Assembly: GCA_009909085.1 (NCBI GenBank)
Contig: JAAANX010000065.1
Location: 1-64,000, forward strand
DNA from: Cyanobacteria bacterium GSL.Bin1
GTDB lineage: Bacteria > Cyanobacteriota > Cyanobacteriia > Cyanobacteriales > Rubidibacteraceae
DNA: 64,000 bases
Reading direction: 5' to 3'
Below the pieces are notes generated by a model. The model was not told the origin of the DNA. It did not search any database and saw only the letters and a list, made by a program, of their open reading frames with translations. Made by a program: the position numbers and the translations under genes. Below are positions 6,481-11,705 of this stretch, piece by piece; position 1 is the stretch's first letter; each line of letters begins with the position of its first letter.

Positions 6481-7419
6481 TTAACGTTGGCGAGGAAGGG
6501 AGTTTCTTTCCCAGAAGACGCCATCGGCATACCCTTGAATGGTTGGATTGTGTTCTGCCATGGCTAGCCGTTTTTGCGCCAAACAAGCATAGTCGAGATC
6601 AATTTCTACCCCACTGTAGTTGCGATTTAGTTTTTTTGCGACCACAGCAGTGGTTCCCACGCCTAAAAAGGGGTCAAAAATCATATCCCCTTCTTGAGAA
6701 CTGGCTAAGATGATTTTTGCTAAGAGTTTTTCCGGTTTCTGTGTCGGATGATCAGTATTTTCAGGCATTGACCAAAAGGGAACTGTGAGATCTGACCAGA
6801 AATTAGAAGGATGCGTCAAACGATAATTGCCTTGTTTTTCTTCTGTCCAATCTTTCGGTTTTCCATTCACTTTATAGGGTGCAATCACTTTCTTTTTCAA
6901 TTTTACTGCCTCAGGATTAAAATAATATTGATCCGAAACTGTCCCAAACCAAATATCCTCAGAACAGTTTTTCCAATTTGACTTTGCACCGCGTCCTTTT
7001 TCTCGTTCCCAAGTAATCCGATTCCGAATAATAAAATATCGAGACATGATCCGATAAATTGCGTTTGATGAGACCCAATCCCCGCAAATATAAACAGATG
7101 CAGTTGGTTTTAAAAGTCTTACCAATGGCTGCAACCATTGCTCCATCCAGACTTCATAATTTTCATCCGTCATTTTTTGGAAGCGACTGCGATTAAAGGT
7201 TTTACTCAAGTTATAAGGCGGATCAATAAATAATAAATCAATAAAATTGTTAGGAAGTTGATCGATAACTGTAAATATATCTTGCTGAATAACTTGATTA
7301 ATAATTTGTTCTAACGGAACGGACTGCTGAAGTGTGAGTAACTTTTTTTTATAGTCATTTTTTTCTTGTTCGTTGAGGGTAATCGTTCGATTTCGGTTTG
7401 CTTTGTCTGTCTGTGCCAT
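6481..7419 (-). CDS. Orphan beta-class adenine (or N4-cytosine) DNA methyltransferase
   Basis: A 312-residue S-adenosylmethionine-dependent DNA methyltransferase. The catalytic motif IV is DPPY at residues 66-69. HPTQKP (224-229) precedes motif I, DPFLGVGTT (249-257). Catalytic motif first, target-recognition region in the middle and SAM motif last is the beta-class order seen in M.RsrI or M.HinfI. DPPY points to N6-adenine methylation, although N4-cytosine is possible. The target is unknown. No restriction endonuclease gene is next to it, so it looks like an orphan, possibly with an epigenetic role. Downstream is tRNA-Asn; upstream is trhO on the same strand. Confidence 0.9.
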   Translation of the reverse strand: MAQTDKANRNRTITLNEQEKNDYKKKLLTLQQSVPLEQIINQVIQQDIFTVIDQLPNNFIDLLFIDPPYNLSKTFNRSRFQKMTDENYEVWMEQWLQPLVRLLKPTASVYICGDWVSSNAIYRIMSRYFIIRNRITWEREKGRGAKSNWKNCSEDIWFGTVSDQYYFNPEAVKLKKKVIAPYKVNGKPKDWTEEKQGNYRLTHPSNFWSDLTVPFWSMPENTDHPTQKPEKLLAKIILASSQEGDMIFDPFLGVGTTAVVAKKLNRNYSGVEIDLDYACLAQKRLAMAEHNPTIQGYADGVFWERNSLPRQR

Positions 7420-7562: not shown

Positions 7563-8474
7563 TTACTTTGAAATGTTTGCGCCAACATGCTTTTGATTGC
7601 GTTGTTTAGCCAGTTCTTGTTGTCGCCGACGTTCTGTGCAGCGATCGCGCTGTTTTTCCGTTAAGCGATCATAGCAATAAGGGCAAGAAATCCCTGGTTC
7701 ATATTTTTCTGATTGGCGATCTGTAGGGGATAAAGGCTGGCTGCAGGCATAACAGAGTTCATAGTTTCCGGTTTCTAAATCCTCAGTAACTGCAACTCGT
7801 TGATCAAAAACAAAACATTCCCCTTCCCATAACGATTCCTCTGAAGAAACCGTTCCTAAATAATTCAAAATTCCGCCATTGAGTTGATAGACTTCCTCAA
7901 ATCCTTTTTCAACTAAATAAGCACTCGCCTTCTCACACCGAATGCCTCCCGTGCAAAACATTGCAATTTTCGTATGCTTTTTCGGATCAAGATTTTCTTC
8001 CACAAATTCAGGAAATTGACGAAAACTATAAGTATGGGGAGAAATCGCATTTTGAAAGGTTCCCACTTTATATTCGTACTCATTGCGAGTATCAATCACT
8101 AACACTTCTGGATCAGAAATAATCTCATTCCACGTTTTGGGGTCAATGTGTTCTCCCGTGGTAATTGCTGGTTCAATTTCATCAACGCCCATCGTCACAA
8201 TTTCCGGTTTAATTTTCACCTTTAAACGAAGAAAAGGCAGTTCCTGTGTCTCTGTCAACTTGGGTTGAATATCTGCAATTCGTTCATCTTCTTCGAGAAG
8301 TTTAAAAAACTGATCAATACTGTCTTTTTCACCCGCAATTGTGGAATTAATTCCTTCTTTCGCTAAAAGAATTGTTCCCATAATGCCGTTATTTTCACAA
8401 AACGTCTTGAGCTTACTTTGTAATGTCTCTAACTGATCTAACTCAATAAACTTATAAAACGTAGCAACAATCAT
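7563..8474 (-). CDS. trhO: tRNA uridine(34) hydroxylase, rhodanese family
   Basis: TrhO (formerly YceA) hydroxylates the wobble uridine of certain tRNAs to 5-hydroxyuridine using molecular oxygen. The 303-residue product has the family N-terminal domain (GTILLAKEGINSTIAG at 33-48), a rhodanese domain with VIDTRNEYEY (127-136) and the active-site loop CTGGIRCEK with Cys174 and Cys180. A cysteine-rich C-terminus follows (CYACSQPLS, CPYCYDRL, then RRRQQ). A strong ribosome site AAGGAGG sits 6 bases before the ATG, inside a dispersed repeat. cmoA-like and cmoB genes follow on the same strand upstream, giving the later steps of the same modification pathway. Confidence 0.93.
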   Translation of the reverse strand: MIVATFYKFIELDQLETLQSKLKTFCENNGIMGTILLAKEGINSTIAGEKDSIDQFFKLLEEDERIADIQPKLTETQELPFLRLKVKIKPEIVTMGVDEIEPAITTGEHIDPKTWNEIISDPEVLVIDTRNEYEYKVGTFQNAISPHTYSFRQFPEFVEENLDPKKHTKIAMFCTGGIRCEKASAYLVEKGFEEVYQLNGGILNYLGTVSSEESLWEGECFVFDQRVAVTEDLETGNYELCYACSQPLSPTDRQSEKYEPGISCPYCYDRLTEKQRDRCTERRRQQELAKQRNQKHVGANISK

Positions 8475-8480
8475 TTTTAA

Positions 8481-8487
8481 CCTCCTT
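8481..8487 (-). promoter_or_regulatory. Strong ribosome-binding site of trhO, inside a dispersed repeat
   Basis: On the minus strand the sequence reads AAGGAGG, six bases before the trhO ATG. Many starts in this window lack a good Shine-Dalgarno motif, so this one stands out. Its bases overlap the end of the repeat copy at 8484-8513. Confidence 0.75.
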
Positions 8488-8513
8488 CGTGCTCTTTGTG
8501 TCTTTGTGGTTAT
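8484..8513 (-). repeat. Dispersed ACCACAGAGACACAGAGG-type repeat, copy 2 (inverted)
   Basis: On the minus strand this copy begins ATAACCACAAAGACACAAAG and runs into GCACGAAGG. It forms the 5' leader of trhO and supplies part of its ribosome-binding site. With the copy at 6377-6406 it brackets the methyltransferase and trhO genes in inverted orientation. Confidence 0.6.
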
Positions 8514-8531
8514 TTTAATCTCTTATTACAC

Positions 8532-9242
8532 TTACTTGATCGCTAAAAAACCTTCAAAACAAATATATTTCATCACTGTTGTAATATCAACAAACCCCGC
8601 TCTTTCGAGTAAGCCTAAATTTCCAGCCCGAGAAAACGGTTCTAAAATCCCTTTCAGACTACGATTTTTAGCAATAATTTCATCGCCAGAATAGCCTTGG
8701 TTTAATTTATAATCTGTATAAAGTGTCGTCATCATATCTTGAAAACGGGCATCCGGACTGCGGACTTTTTCAAATAAAAGAAAGCCCCCTCCCCAATTCA
8801 GGGCTTCATAAATTCGATTAAATAAAACTTGACGATGTTTCGGCTTAATAAACTGCATTGTGTAGTAAGCAATAATTAAATCAGCCTTTTCTAATTCTAA
8901 ATCAATTAAACTCTCATTGCGAATTTCAATATTGGGAAACGGTTGGCACAGATTTTGGGCATAATTCACCATGTCAGCTTCGATGTCAATGCCAATAAAT
9001 TGCACTCGTTTCTTGTTATGATGTTTGGCTAAACCAGCCAACAAAGTTCCTGTCGAGCAACCTAAATCGTAACAGATTGACCCATCACCTAAGAAGAAGT
9101 CAGATATGCTAATCCCTAATTCATGGCTGGTTTCATAAAAGGGAATGGATTTCTTGATATGCTGATCAAAGTGTTGACTAATTTCACCACTAAATGACCA
9201 ATTGGCATTACCCGCTTCAATTTGATCTCCTACATTTGTCAT
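8532..9242 (-). CDS. cmoA: Carboxy-SAM synthase-like methyltransferase (CmoA-like)
   Basis: CmoA turns SAM and prephenate into carboxy-S-adenosylmethionine, the donor used by CmoB. The 236-residue product follows the CmoA pattern along its length: FDQHIKKSIPFY (25-36), the SAM motif YDLGCSTGTLL (58-68), acidic IGIDIEADM (83-91), TMQFIKPKHRQ (128-138), GGGFLLFEKV (151-160), then the helix after NQGYSGDEIIAKNRSL. Arg194 there aligns, from memory, with the E. coli arginine (Arg199) reported to hold the carboxylate of the cofactor. Overall identity looks moderate, so a generic methyltransferase remains possible. The nearby trhO and clear cmoB favour CmoA. Confidence 0.8.
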   Translation of the reverse strand: MTNVGDQIEAGNANWSFSGEISQHFDQHIKKSIPFYETSHELGISISDFFLGDGSICYDLGCSTGTLLAGLAKHHNKKRVQFIGIDIEADMVNYAQNLCQPFPNIEIRNESLIDLELEKADLIIAYYTMQFIKPKHRQVLFNRIYEALNWGGGFLLFEKVRSPDARFQDMMTTLYTDYKLNQGYSGDEIIAKNRSLKGILEPFSRAGNLGLLERAGFVDITTVMKYICFEGFLAIK

Positions 9243-9328
9243 TATTTTTGATTGATCAGGGCAAGGTTATTTTCAAAACTGAACTTACTACGTGAATTGA
9301 GAAAAACGATGATTGGTTTACCTTTAGT

Positions 9329-9589
9329 TTAAAGTGGTTTTCGGATCACTGTAATTCCCATGGCAATTAAGCCCACATTTCTAAAGAGACTCCCCAGAAT
9401 TTGTAGGATATCAGGAAGCGGTAGTAACGCAACAGCAAGGTTAAGAGAAATTCCAATCAAAAAAAGCGCGATCGCGCTGGGTGAGAACACTTTGGCTTTT
9501 AAAGAATCAATTCCAAACTCGGAAATAAGATGTAACCTGGGAGCAGCGATCGCGGTTGTTCCAATGATCCAGCGTAAAGATTTTGTCAT
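9329..9589 (-). CDS. Hypothetical small membrane protein
   Basis: An 86-residue product not recognised as a known family. Two hydrophobic stretches are clear: SAIALFLIGISLNLAVALL (about 38-56) and the C-terminal GSLFRNVGLIAMGITVI (about 66-82). The N-terminus, TKSLRWIIGTTAIAA, is also hydrophobic. It lies between the cmoA-like gene and nadA on the same strand, with room for its own promoter. The opposite strand also has an open frame, but this one reads as a plausible membrane protein. Function unknown. Confidence 0.5.
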   Translation of the reverse strand: MTKSLRWIIGTTAIAAPRLHLISEFGIDSLKAKVFSPSAIALFLIGISLNLAVALLPLPDILQILGSLFRNVGLIAMGITVIRKPL

Positions 9590-9694
9590 TTCCCGGTTCT
9601 TGCCGCAGCAGTTTTCGAAGACGGCGATCTTAAGCTAATTTGTAGCCAAAATCAGCTTTGTCAGCCACGAATACATCCCAATTTCTTGATCAAC

Positions 9695-10663
9695 TTAACT
9701 CATTTCTAGCATCCGTTGAATTGGCTTTAAAGCCGCCACCCGAATCTCTTTAGAAAGCGTCACTTCCGGTTGGCGATGTTTCATCGCGAGATAGAGTTTT
9801 TCTAGCGTATTTAACCGCATATACGGACATTCATTGCAGGCGCAATTATTCATCGCCGGTGCTGGAATAAAGGTTTTATTGGGAGTGGCTTTTTCCATTT
9901 GATGAATAATGCCGGGTTCAGTTGCCACAATAAACTCAGACTGAGCACTTTCTTGAGAATACTTGAGTAAAGAAGTTGTGGAACCAATATAATTGGCGTG
10001 ACGTAAAACGGGTTCTTCACATTCCGGGTGAGCGATAATTTCTGCTTCGGGATGAGTGGTTTTCAGCTGGACAATTGCTTTTTCCGAAAAGGTTTCATGA
10101 ACAATACAGCTGCCTTCCCATAAGACTAAATCGCGTCCGGTTTGCTGCATCACATAGCGCCCTAAATTGCGATCCGGTGCGAAAATAATTGGCTGATCTT
10201 CGGGGATTTGATTGACAATTTTCACTGCATTAGAACTGGTGCAAATAATATCGCTCATTGCCTTGATTTCGGCGGTGCAGTTGATATAGGAAATCACTAA
10301 ATGATCGGGATATTGGGCTTTAAATTCGGCAAATTCTTTGGGAGGGCAGCCTTCCGCTAAAGAACAACCCGCATCTAAATCAGGAATTAGTACCAGCTTA
10401 TCGGGGTTCAAAATTTTTGCTGTTTCCGCCATGAAATGAACCCCAGCGAAAACAATTACATCTGCATCGGTATTGGCAGCTTTTTGGGATAAGCCCAGGG
10501 AGTCGCCAATGTAGTCAGCAACGTCTTGAATATCTCCTTCCTGGTAGTAATGGGCTAAGATGACTGCATTCAGTTCTTGTTTGAGGGTATCAACAGCAGT
10601 GACTAAGTCGGTTGGAATTGTATTCGCGTTTGATTTCGATTTGGCAAAAGCAGTTGTAAACAC
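9695..10663 (-). CDS. nadA: Quinolinate synthase
   Basis: NadA condenses iminoaspartate with dihydroxyacetone phosphate to make quinolinate in NAD synthesis, using an oxygen-sensitive [4Fe-4S] cluster. The 322-residue product carries [20 protein letters not shown] (37-56), [12 protein letters not shown] (76-87) and the cluster cysteines expected in DAGCS (Cys100), WEGSC (Cys186) and NECPYM (Cys279). The end motif [11 protein letters not shown] is typical. Length is normal. It sits between the cmoA-like and cmoB genes on the same strand but has no obvious functional link to them. Confidence 0.95.
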
Positions 10664-10730
10664 AGTTGTGTCCGATTTTTTGAATTATAGTTAGTTGTAC
10701 CAAATATTATAGTTAAATTTACCAAAATTG

Positions 10731-11705
10731 TCAGGTGGGGGCTTGGGCAATCATAATGGCTCGTAGAGGGGCTGGATAACCTTCAATGGTTTGACTGTGG
10801 TCGGTGGGATCTAGAAAGTTTTCCAAGGAGTGGGAGGTGATCCACTCGGTGCGTCGTTGTTCTTGAATGGTGGTAGCGGTGACATCGACTAAGTTGATCT
10901 CGGTGAAGCCAGATTGTTTTAACCAGGATTCTAAAGTGGCGCAATTGGGAATTGACCAAACATTGCGCATCTTGGCGTAGCGTTTTTCGGGGATGAGAAC
11001 ATCAGTGTAGTCTTCTGGGACAACAAGGGTTTCTAAAACCAGTTCTCCGCCCGGTTTAAGGCTATCCCGTAGCGTTTGAAGATGATCCAGCGGCGATCGC
11101 TGATGATACAAAACGCCCATTGAAAAAACGGTGTCAAAGGCTTGTAAGTTTTCTGGAAGGTGTTGCACGCCCAACGGTAAGACATAACCGTTAATGTCAG
11201 GTAAATAACGACGGATCACTTCATACTGCATCGTGTACAAAACAGAAGGATCTAAACCGATAACTAAGTTTGCCCCCATTCCCAGCATTCGTAAGGCGTA
11301 ATAACCGTTACCGCAGCCAATATCTAAAACCGTTCGGTCTTTTAATGGGGTAATGTGATCCGCCAGTCGTTGCCATTTCCAGTCGGAACGCCACTCGGTA
11401 TCAATATAGACGCCAAATAATTCTAGTGGACCTTTGCGCCAAGGGCGGAGTTGCTTTAAGCCGGTTTCTAACTGTTGATCAGTCGTCTCATCGGTGTCTT
11501 CTTTGCAACCAATTTTGACATGATGTTGCAGTTCCACTCGACTCGGTTTTAAATCAGGGAGGTTCTCAACCACGGCTTGCCATTCTAAAAAATGTCCATG
11601 TCGTTTGGGTTGTAAGGCAGTATCTACTGCTTCGGGAAGTGTTTCTAACCAGGGGGCGGCAGGAGATGCTGCCAGTTGGTCATAGAGAGGCTGGTAGTCA
11701 AACAT
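10731..11705 (-). CDS. cmoB: tRNA U34 carboxymethyltransferase
   Basis: CmoB transfers the carboxymethyl group of carboxy-SAM to 5-hydroxyuridine at tRNA position 34, giving cmo5U, which widens wobble decoding. The 324-residue product is a convincing member. PWRKGPLELFG contains Lys91, IDTEWRSDWKW follows, the SAM motif is LDIGCGNGYYALRM (127-140), FSMGVLYHQRSPLDHL contains Tyr200, and the C-terminal TIEGYPAPLRAIMIA contains Arg315. Lys91, Tyr200 and Arg315 fall at the same numbers as residues reported to recognise the carboxylated cofactor in E. coli CmoB. It ends just before xdhC on the same strand; trhO and a cmoA-like gene lie within 4 kb. Confidence 0.94.
   Translation of the reverse strand: MFDYQPLYDQLAASPAAPWLETLPEAVDTALQPKRHGHFLEWQAVVENLPDLKPSRVELQHHVKIGCKEDTDETTDQQLETGLKQLRPWRKGPLELFGVYIDTEWRSDWKWQRLADHITPLKDRTVLDIGCGNGYYALRMLGMGANLVIGLDPSVLYTMQYEVIRRYLPDINGYVLPLGVQHLPENLQAFDTVFSMGVLYHQRSPLDHLQTLRDSLKPGGELVLETLVVPEDYTDVLIPEKRYAKMRNVWSIPNCATLESWLKQSGFTEINLVDVTATTIQEQRRTEWITSHSLENFLDPTDHSQTIEGYPAPLRAIMIAQAPT

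Follow-up and report, generated by a model that had tools for sequence, protein, structure and literature searches.

We suggest that the 64,000-nucleotide stretch of Cyanobacteria bacterium GSL.Bin1 analysed here (contig JAAANX010000065.1, positions 1 to 64,000; the window) likely encodes a working pathway to 5-carboxymethoxyuridine at the tRNA wobble position (cmo5U34), with components of separate origin, in a cyanobacterium of the Halothece/Dactylococcopsis type. The genes in question are trhO, a cmoA-like gene and cmoB. The initial annotation had located all three correctly on the minus strand and had not mentioned nadA, which lies among them. We establish here the genes themselves, their co-occurrence among cyanobacteria, the placement of the CmoA-like protein in a second class of CmoA (class II) and the residue exchange found in it. 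Judged from sequence, TrhO would hydroxylate U34 using O2; the class II CmoA, from a lineage seen elsewhere in phages and on plasmids, would convert S-adenosylmethionine (SAM) and prephenate to carboxy-SAM (Cx-SAM), its Lys197 (position 203 in E. coli CmoA numbering) holding the carboxylate in place of Arg199; and a Pseudomonadota-type CmoB would move the carboxymethyl group onto 5-hydroxyuridine at position 34.

Distribution and gene order in cyanobacteria

Among 292 genomes of the phylum, the CmoA-like protein was detected in nine (E-values up to 1e-12), CmoB in seven (up to 1e-30) and TrhO in 128 (up to 1e-20); the searches scored part of each genome's first-look candidates, and an absence is not proof. 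Three groups account for the seven CmoB genomes: the genus of the window, one family from a different class (f32), and the cyanobacterium G286, which comes from a further family. All seven also carry the cmoA-like gene and six of them trhO, G286 giving no match at E 1e-20. The hypergeometric probability of the CmoA/CmoB co-occurrence is 1e-12 by genome and 2e-6 by genus, figures that ignore kinship and are descriptive only. Within the window's genus, the three proteins were found together in the same five of six genomes, and none of them was found in our search of the sixth (G293, 99% complete). With these counts, the cmo5U34 route that the initial annotation had proposed stands as the best reading of the locus.

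In each of the five genus members with both genes, trhO lies next to cmoA in the same orientation. They are direct neighbours in the window, G292, G054 and G294, the last on the contig of a Halothece metagenome-assembled genome (MAG; locus L037) that ends inside trhO, and 702 bases lie between them in G121. The position of cmoB varies: in the window it lies on the same strand beyond nadA, in G121 and G294 it diverges from cmoA, and in G292 it is also divergent, with a Uma2-family gene in between. The linkage of the three genes is a loose association and not a fixed operon.

CmoB and TrhO

The cmoB gene (10731-11705, minus strand; 324 aa), for a tRNA U34 carboxymethyltransferase, scores 464 bits against TIGR00452 (cut-off 275). 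The protein keeps Lys91, Lys110, Gly130, Asp152, Met196, Gly197, Tyr200 and Arg315, and the alignment puts Lys91, Tyr200 and Arg315 at exactly the numbers initially reported; the conserved Glu182 aligns with Gln181 of the window protein. Across 93 CmoB rows, which include some duplicates from the window's genus, Lys91 is present in all 93, Tyr200 in 90 (His in three) and Arg315 in 91 (gaps in two). Among the best 80 of 578 relatives in the stretches returned, the nearest named relative is the Halothece MAG (77% identity), and the other 79 loci, mostly of Gammaproteobacteria, show 52-57%.

The trhO gene (7563-8474, minus strand; 303 aa), for an oxygen-dependent tRNA U34 hydroxylase, scores 328.5 bits against NCBIfam NF001133 (cut-off 170). 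The comparison of TrhO, made by identity, covered cyanobacterial genomes and two solved structures of related proteins, 4f67 and 9j5o, of which 9j5o bears the name tRNA uridine(34) hydroxylase. Outside the genus, TrhO most resembles proteins from the same order (best 55-56% identity), which fits vertical descent.

The CmoA-like protein

The cmoA-like gene (8532-9242, minus strand; 236 aa), assigned here as a class II Cx-SAM synthase, is the only CmoA match in the search of the window's genome. It scores 146 bits against TIGR00740, below the cut-off of 193.3 for canonical CmoA. The CmoA of Synechococcus phage S-B43 (L169), a proven synthase, is also under it at 115.6 bits, so this cut-off misses a real synthase. 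The AlphaFold2 model of the window protein (mean pLDDT 91.6) has its best PDB matches in 4gek, 4iwn and 1im8, the CmoA structures of E. coli and H. influenzae, with TM scores of 0.85-0.92. This fold and the retained Tyr39, Asp62, Gly64, Ser66, Asp89 and Glu164 place the protein in the CmoA superfamily.

Arg199 of E. coli CmoA forms a salt bridge with the carboxylate of Cx-SAM, according to Byrne 2013 (PMC3663124). Position 199 is Asn or Ser in the window's genus, Ala in f32 and Lys in G286; position 203 is Lys in the genus and Arg in f32, and Glu or Asp in proteobacterial CmoA. The residue at 203 is Lys197 in the window protein (codon 8652-8654, minus strand), where E. coli CmoA has Glu203. 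Both positions lie at the end of a single predicted helix, separated by one turn; this helix spans residues 186-196 in the window model, where Lys197 comes directly after, and residues 191-202 in the model of a class I protein (L109). Lys197 may replace Arg199 as the carboxylate ligand.

A register error at this place was considered, as the genus has an Arg (Arg194) one residue later, and was rejected. Lys198, Leu202 and Pro208 anchor both sides of the site gap-free, f32 has no Arg at the Arg194 place, and the helix boundaries are equally offset in both models, in which all elements from window residue 120 onward share a 5-residue offset.

Two classes of CmoA

The exchange extends over the CmoA family. 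We aligned 161 rows, made up of 159 loci, the window and an E. coli reference stretch. Of these, 64 carry a basic residue at position 199 alone (class I), 96 at 203 alone (class II), one at both and none at neither. This sample is not neutral: 80 rows are the best of 569 confirmed matches when viral sequences were scanned with a class II alignment, and 57 class I rows stem from the 79 loci fetched with CmoB. All 64 rows basic only at 199 have Glu or Asp at 203. In class II, position 203 is always basic and position 199 varies (Glu, Gln, Ser, Ala, Asn, Asp, Thr and once Arg). Before the count, 22 loci were left out, namely second fetches of genomes already included, L171 as an identical sequence, and the hit in G149, which is partial (residues 3-148 only) and is counted among the nine of 292 genomes, outside the residue tables. 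Six of the 83 matched phage records and eight of the 51 matched plasmid records were examined.

A 73-row tree built without columns 199 and 203 separated the same groups: all 30 sequences on one side are acidic at 203 and all 43 on the other are basic there. Once the rows had been thinned at 80% identity, His occupied position 31 in each of the 48 class II rows and Met in 98% of the 42 class I rows, a comparison in which the classes were defined by residues 199 and 203 and only the other columns are informative. The window protein has the class II-specific His28 at this position (codon 9159-9161, minus strand; Met31 in E. coli).

The single row of the 161 with basic residues at both positions comes from a viral contig (L176:2036-3825) with a CmoX-like cytosine-C5 methyltransferase next to its CmoA. 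Separately, the cyanobacterium G286 has adjacent cmoA and cmoB genes (L154:5870-7659), and its CmoA is Lys199/Glu203 and scores 198.8 bits against TIGR00740, above the cut-off.

The S-B43 CmoA (SpCmoA), with Glu199/Arg203, makes Cx-SAM with a kcat of 2.33 s-1, compared with 0.23 s-1 for E. coli CmoA (PMC12783734). It is, to our knowledge, the only class II member shown to be active.

Several points weigh against the cmo5U34 pathway as proposed. Arg199 is absent from the window protein, the aligned residue being Asn193 (codon 8664-8666, minus strand; placed by the alignments and the helix boundary offset), and conservation of Arg199 was used in PMC3663124 as a sign that the CmoA family holds Cx-SAM and not SAM. 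Asn90, Asp117 and Asn132, listed contacts in E. coli CmoA, are replaced as well, and the contact of Lys197 with the carboxylate is a deduction. The branch that splits the two classes has support of 94/87, which earned no star, and the split is essentially one deep event and therefore not a case of repeated coevolution. No CmoB was found in two of the nine genomes with a CmoA-like gene (G038 of f32, 73% complete, and G149, with its partial match). In G054, cmoB lies about 470 kb from cmoA, and there is no stable cmoA-cmoB operon. Our literature search returned neither an activity of the window CmoA-like protein nor mass spectrometry of cyanobacterial tRNA. The initial annotation had regarded a CmoA-like protein without the carboxylate-binding residues as grounds for abandoning the pathway. 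In the literal sense this is the case, Arg199 being Asn193, yet it is not decisive: the active S-B43 relative lacks Arg199 too, and so the loss of this residue does not rule out function.

The same loss, together with the score under the CmoA cut-off, would also suit an ordinary SAM-binding protein or methyltransferase that makes no Cx-SAM, with CmoB using SAM to form 5-methoxyuridine (mo5U) at position 34 or standing idle. A SAM-dependent side reaction has been described for CmoB and its K91A mutant (PMC4482062), and a PF01596 O-methyltransferase of the genome might supply mo5U anyway. We regard this explanation as unlikely, since the proven phage synthase shares the residue pattern, CmoB keeps Lys91, which disfavours SAM (PMC4482062), and cmoA-like and cmoB genes co-occur closely.

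Origins of CmoA and CmoB

The CmoA of the window's genus lies inside class II, in a clade (support 100/98) with the f32 proteins, a protein of a Burkholderia stagnalis plasmid (L163, 55% identity) and a phage protein (L176, 54%). Constraining it into class I was rejected by the approximately unbiased (AU) test (p 6.9e-5). Constraining it with f32 alone, as for a common origin, was not rejected (p 0.086), so that one or two recruitments of CmoA are both possible. The CmoB of the genus was placed among Pseudomonadota in a sample of 48 rows from fetched loci, which favours relatives of the window CmoB and was freed of the genus duplicates L129, L156, L157 and L175 and of L154. In this sample a common origin of CmoB in the genus and f32 was rejected (AU p 0.0101). 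As the CmoA is not of the proteobacterial kind while the CmoB is Pseudomonadota-like, the set appears assembled and not moved as one block. The direction of gene transfer is something that we infer.

The transferred module considered in the initial annotation thus finds no support. A complete gammaproteobacterial cmoAB module whose CmoA then merely diverged would agree with the Pseudomonadota as the closest relatives of CmoB outside the genus. It would also agree with the class I cmoA inside the fetched stretch at 57 of the 79 CmoB loci L038-L116 (both among the best 80 of 578); the fetched stretch at the other 22, a large share of them from Methylococcales, gave no CmoA. We judge such a transfer highly improbable, and for CmoA the class II placement and the rejected class I constraint rule out whole-block transfer from gammaproteobacteria; the GC content of cmoA (0.367) against that of cmoB (0.475) likewise speaks against it. 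Including trhO (0.390), the spread of GC content among the three genes agrees weakly with mixed origins.

We lean towards a more general reading, according to which there are two synthase classes with the charge exchanged at 199/203, and class II, known from phage DNA hypermodification and plasmid peptide-type clusters, would have been recruited to cyanobacterial tRNA wobble modification, on one or perhaps several occasions, alongside a CmoB acquired separately.

Carboxy-SAM users and the tRNA set

The mark of CmoX is Arg350 at the motif X position of a cytosine-C5 methyltransferase (PMC12783734). Both PF00145 cytosine-C5 methyltransferases of the window's genome read IGNA(V/I) at motif X, with no Arg, which leaves CmoB as the only Cx-SAM user recognised, MNIO genes not having been searched genome-wide. 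On the phage contig L176, the gene after CmoA encodes a cytosine-C5 methyltransferase that has the SPPC motif, a published criterion for picking CmoX, and an Arg aligned with CmoX Arg350. On the Burkholderia stagnalis plasmid (L163:7084-12944), the class II CmoA stands between an MNIO gene (PF05114; MbnB/TglH-type) and a TglI-like/methyltransferase gene, with a radical SAM gene after the latter. By its gene content, this cluster probably serves Cx-SAM-dependent peptide modification of the 3-thiaglutamate (Tgl) kind. According to a review (PMC10491745), Cx-SAM for peptide pathways is made by the CmoA homologues TglE and MccS, so the L163 CmoA may be of the TglE kind.

Phages and plasmids of Firmicutes (L159, L160, L164, L166 and L167) also have cytosine-C5 methyltransferases close to a class II CmoA, without the SPPC motif in the frames read. 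These enzymes may be other carboxymethyltransferases.

These neighbours raise the question of whether the window protein could supply Cx-SAM to a different acceptor, be it DNA, a peptide or a small molecule, the link to CmoB being secondary. Its nearest relatives outside the genus stand beside an MNIO gene (L163) or a CmoX-like gene (L176) and probably serve other acceptors, as TglE and MccS serve peptide pathways. We find this quite improbable, because both cytosine-C5 methyltransferases of the genome have GN instead of Arg at motif X, because no MNIO gene lies beside the window cmoA (a statement on the neighbourhood, not on the whole genome) and because within the genus the CmoA-like protein, CmoB and TrhO occur or are missing as a set.

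For the cmo5U34 pathway, the tRNA set was surveyed. At least 42 tRNA genes were found and given anticodons, a lower bound with 150 of 266 candidates scored and the assembly in 210 contigs. U34 and G34 tRNAs are present for Leu (CUN), Val, Ser (UCN), Pro, Thr and Ala, and C34 tRNAs for all of these except Val. There is thus no decoding gap in the six boxes that needs cmo5U. Missing tRNAs were dismissed as the reason for the modification, with no gap for A-, G- or pyrimidine-ending codons besides the C34 tRNA-Val. The extension of wobble decoding that the initial annotation had in mind, and for which it proposed this survey, is accordingly not borne out; cmo5U could instead fine-tune decoding, most of all that of GUG. 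A single PF01596 O-methyltransferase was found in the genome (L147:1231-2070); it is possibly TrmR, and, on gene content, mo5U and cmo5U branches may coexist in the host.

Neighbouring genes

Read along the minus strand, the order is cmoB, nadA, a 452-base gap, the cmoA-like gene and trhO. The nadA gene (9695-10663, minus strand), encoding quinolinate synthase (NF006878, 475.6 bits), is a probable bystander between cmoA and cmoB; a NadA-like open reading frame, recognised by translation, also follows cmoB in the Halothece MAG (L037). The gap (9243-9694, no strand) contains an 86-aa open reading frame that looks membrane-like by eye (9329-9589, minus strand). Adjoining trhO, an N6/N4 DNA methyltransferase gene (6481-7419, minus strand; PF01555) looks like an ordinary orphan methyltransferase.

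Relation to known systems

The gene set itself is already known. Sakai et al. 2019 listed Dactylococcopsis salina, a cyanobacterium, with cmoAB and trmR and no trhP, used this on the way to trhO, and noted trhO near cmoA in cyanobacteria (PMC6599085); Kim et al. 2015 listed CmoB in some Cyanobacteria (PMC4482062). These two papers already place CmoB, cmoAB and the trhO-cmoA neighbourhood in the phylum, and the route is less under-described than initially supposed. The window shares its gene set and the nearness of trhO to cmoA with D. salina; the class of CmoA and the loss of Arg199 are not discussed in the accessible part of PMC6599085.

Compared with the E. coli pathway (TrhO/TrhP, CmoA, CmoB and CmoM), the window has TrhO and CmoB family members by curated cut-offs, with the CmoB recognition residues kept. 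It differs in Asn/Lys where E. coli CmoA has Arg/Glu at 199/203, and in loosely linked genes, nadA separating cmoB from cmoA. The CmoA/CmoX/CmoY system of S-B43, which forms 5-carboxymethylcytosine (5cxmC) in DNA, has a CmoA of the window's class that is a proven Cx-SAM synthase (PMC12783734). There the acceptor is DNA cytosine via CmoX, whereas in the window it would be tRNA via CmoB, as the genes indicate. TglE (3-thiaglutamate) and MccS (microcin C) are also CmoA homologues that make Cx-SAM, and the plasmid relative L163 of the window protein has TglH- and TglI-like parts, but their acceptor is a peptide (PMC10491745).

By title or abstract start, our literature search found no 199/203 exchange and no phage-type CmoA in cyanobacteria. 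The strings '199' and '203' are absent from the main text of PMC12783734, and 'Arg199' and 'R199' from PMC7496830 and PMC10491745. Neither the class of the CmoA in this set nor the residue exchange or the mixed origin came up in this search.

Taken together, a whole lineage of CmoA, with one proven member, is without Arg199 and has a basic residue four positions on, which alters how such enzymes are found and annotated. The class II exchange offers a simple way to probe by mutation what holds the carboxylate, and phage DNA hypermodification and bacterial tRNA modification are linked here via one cofactor-making enzyme.

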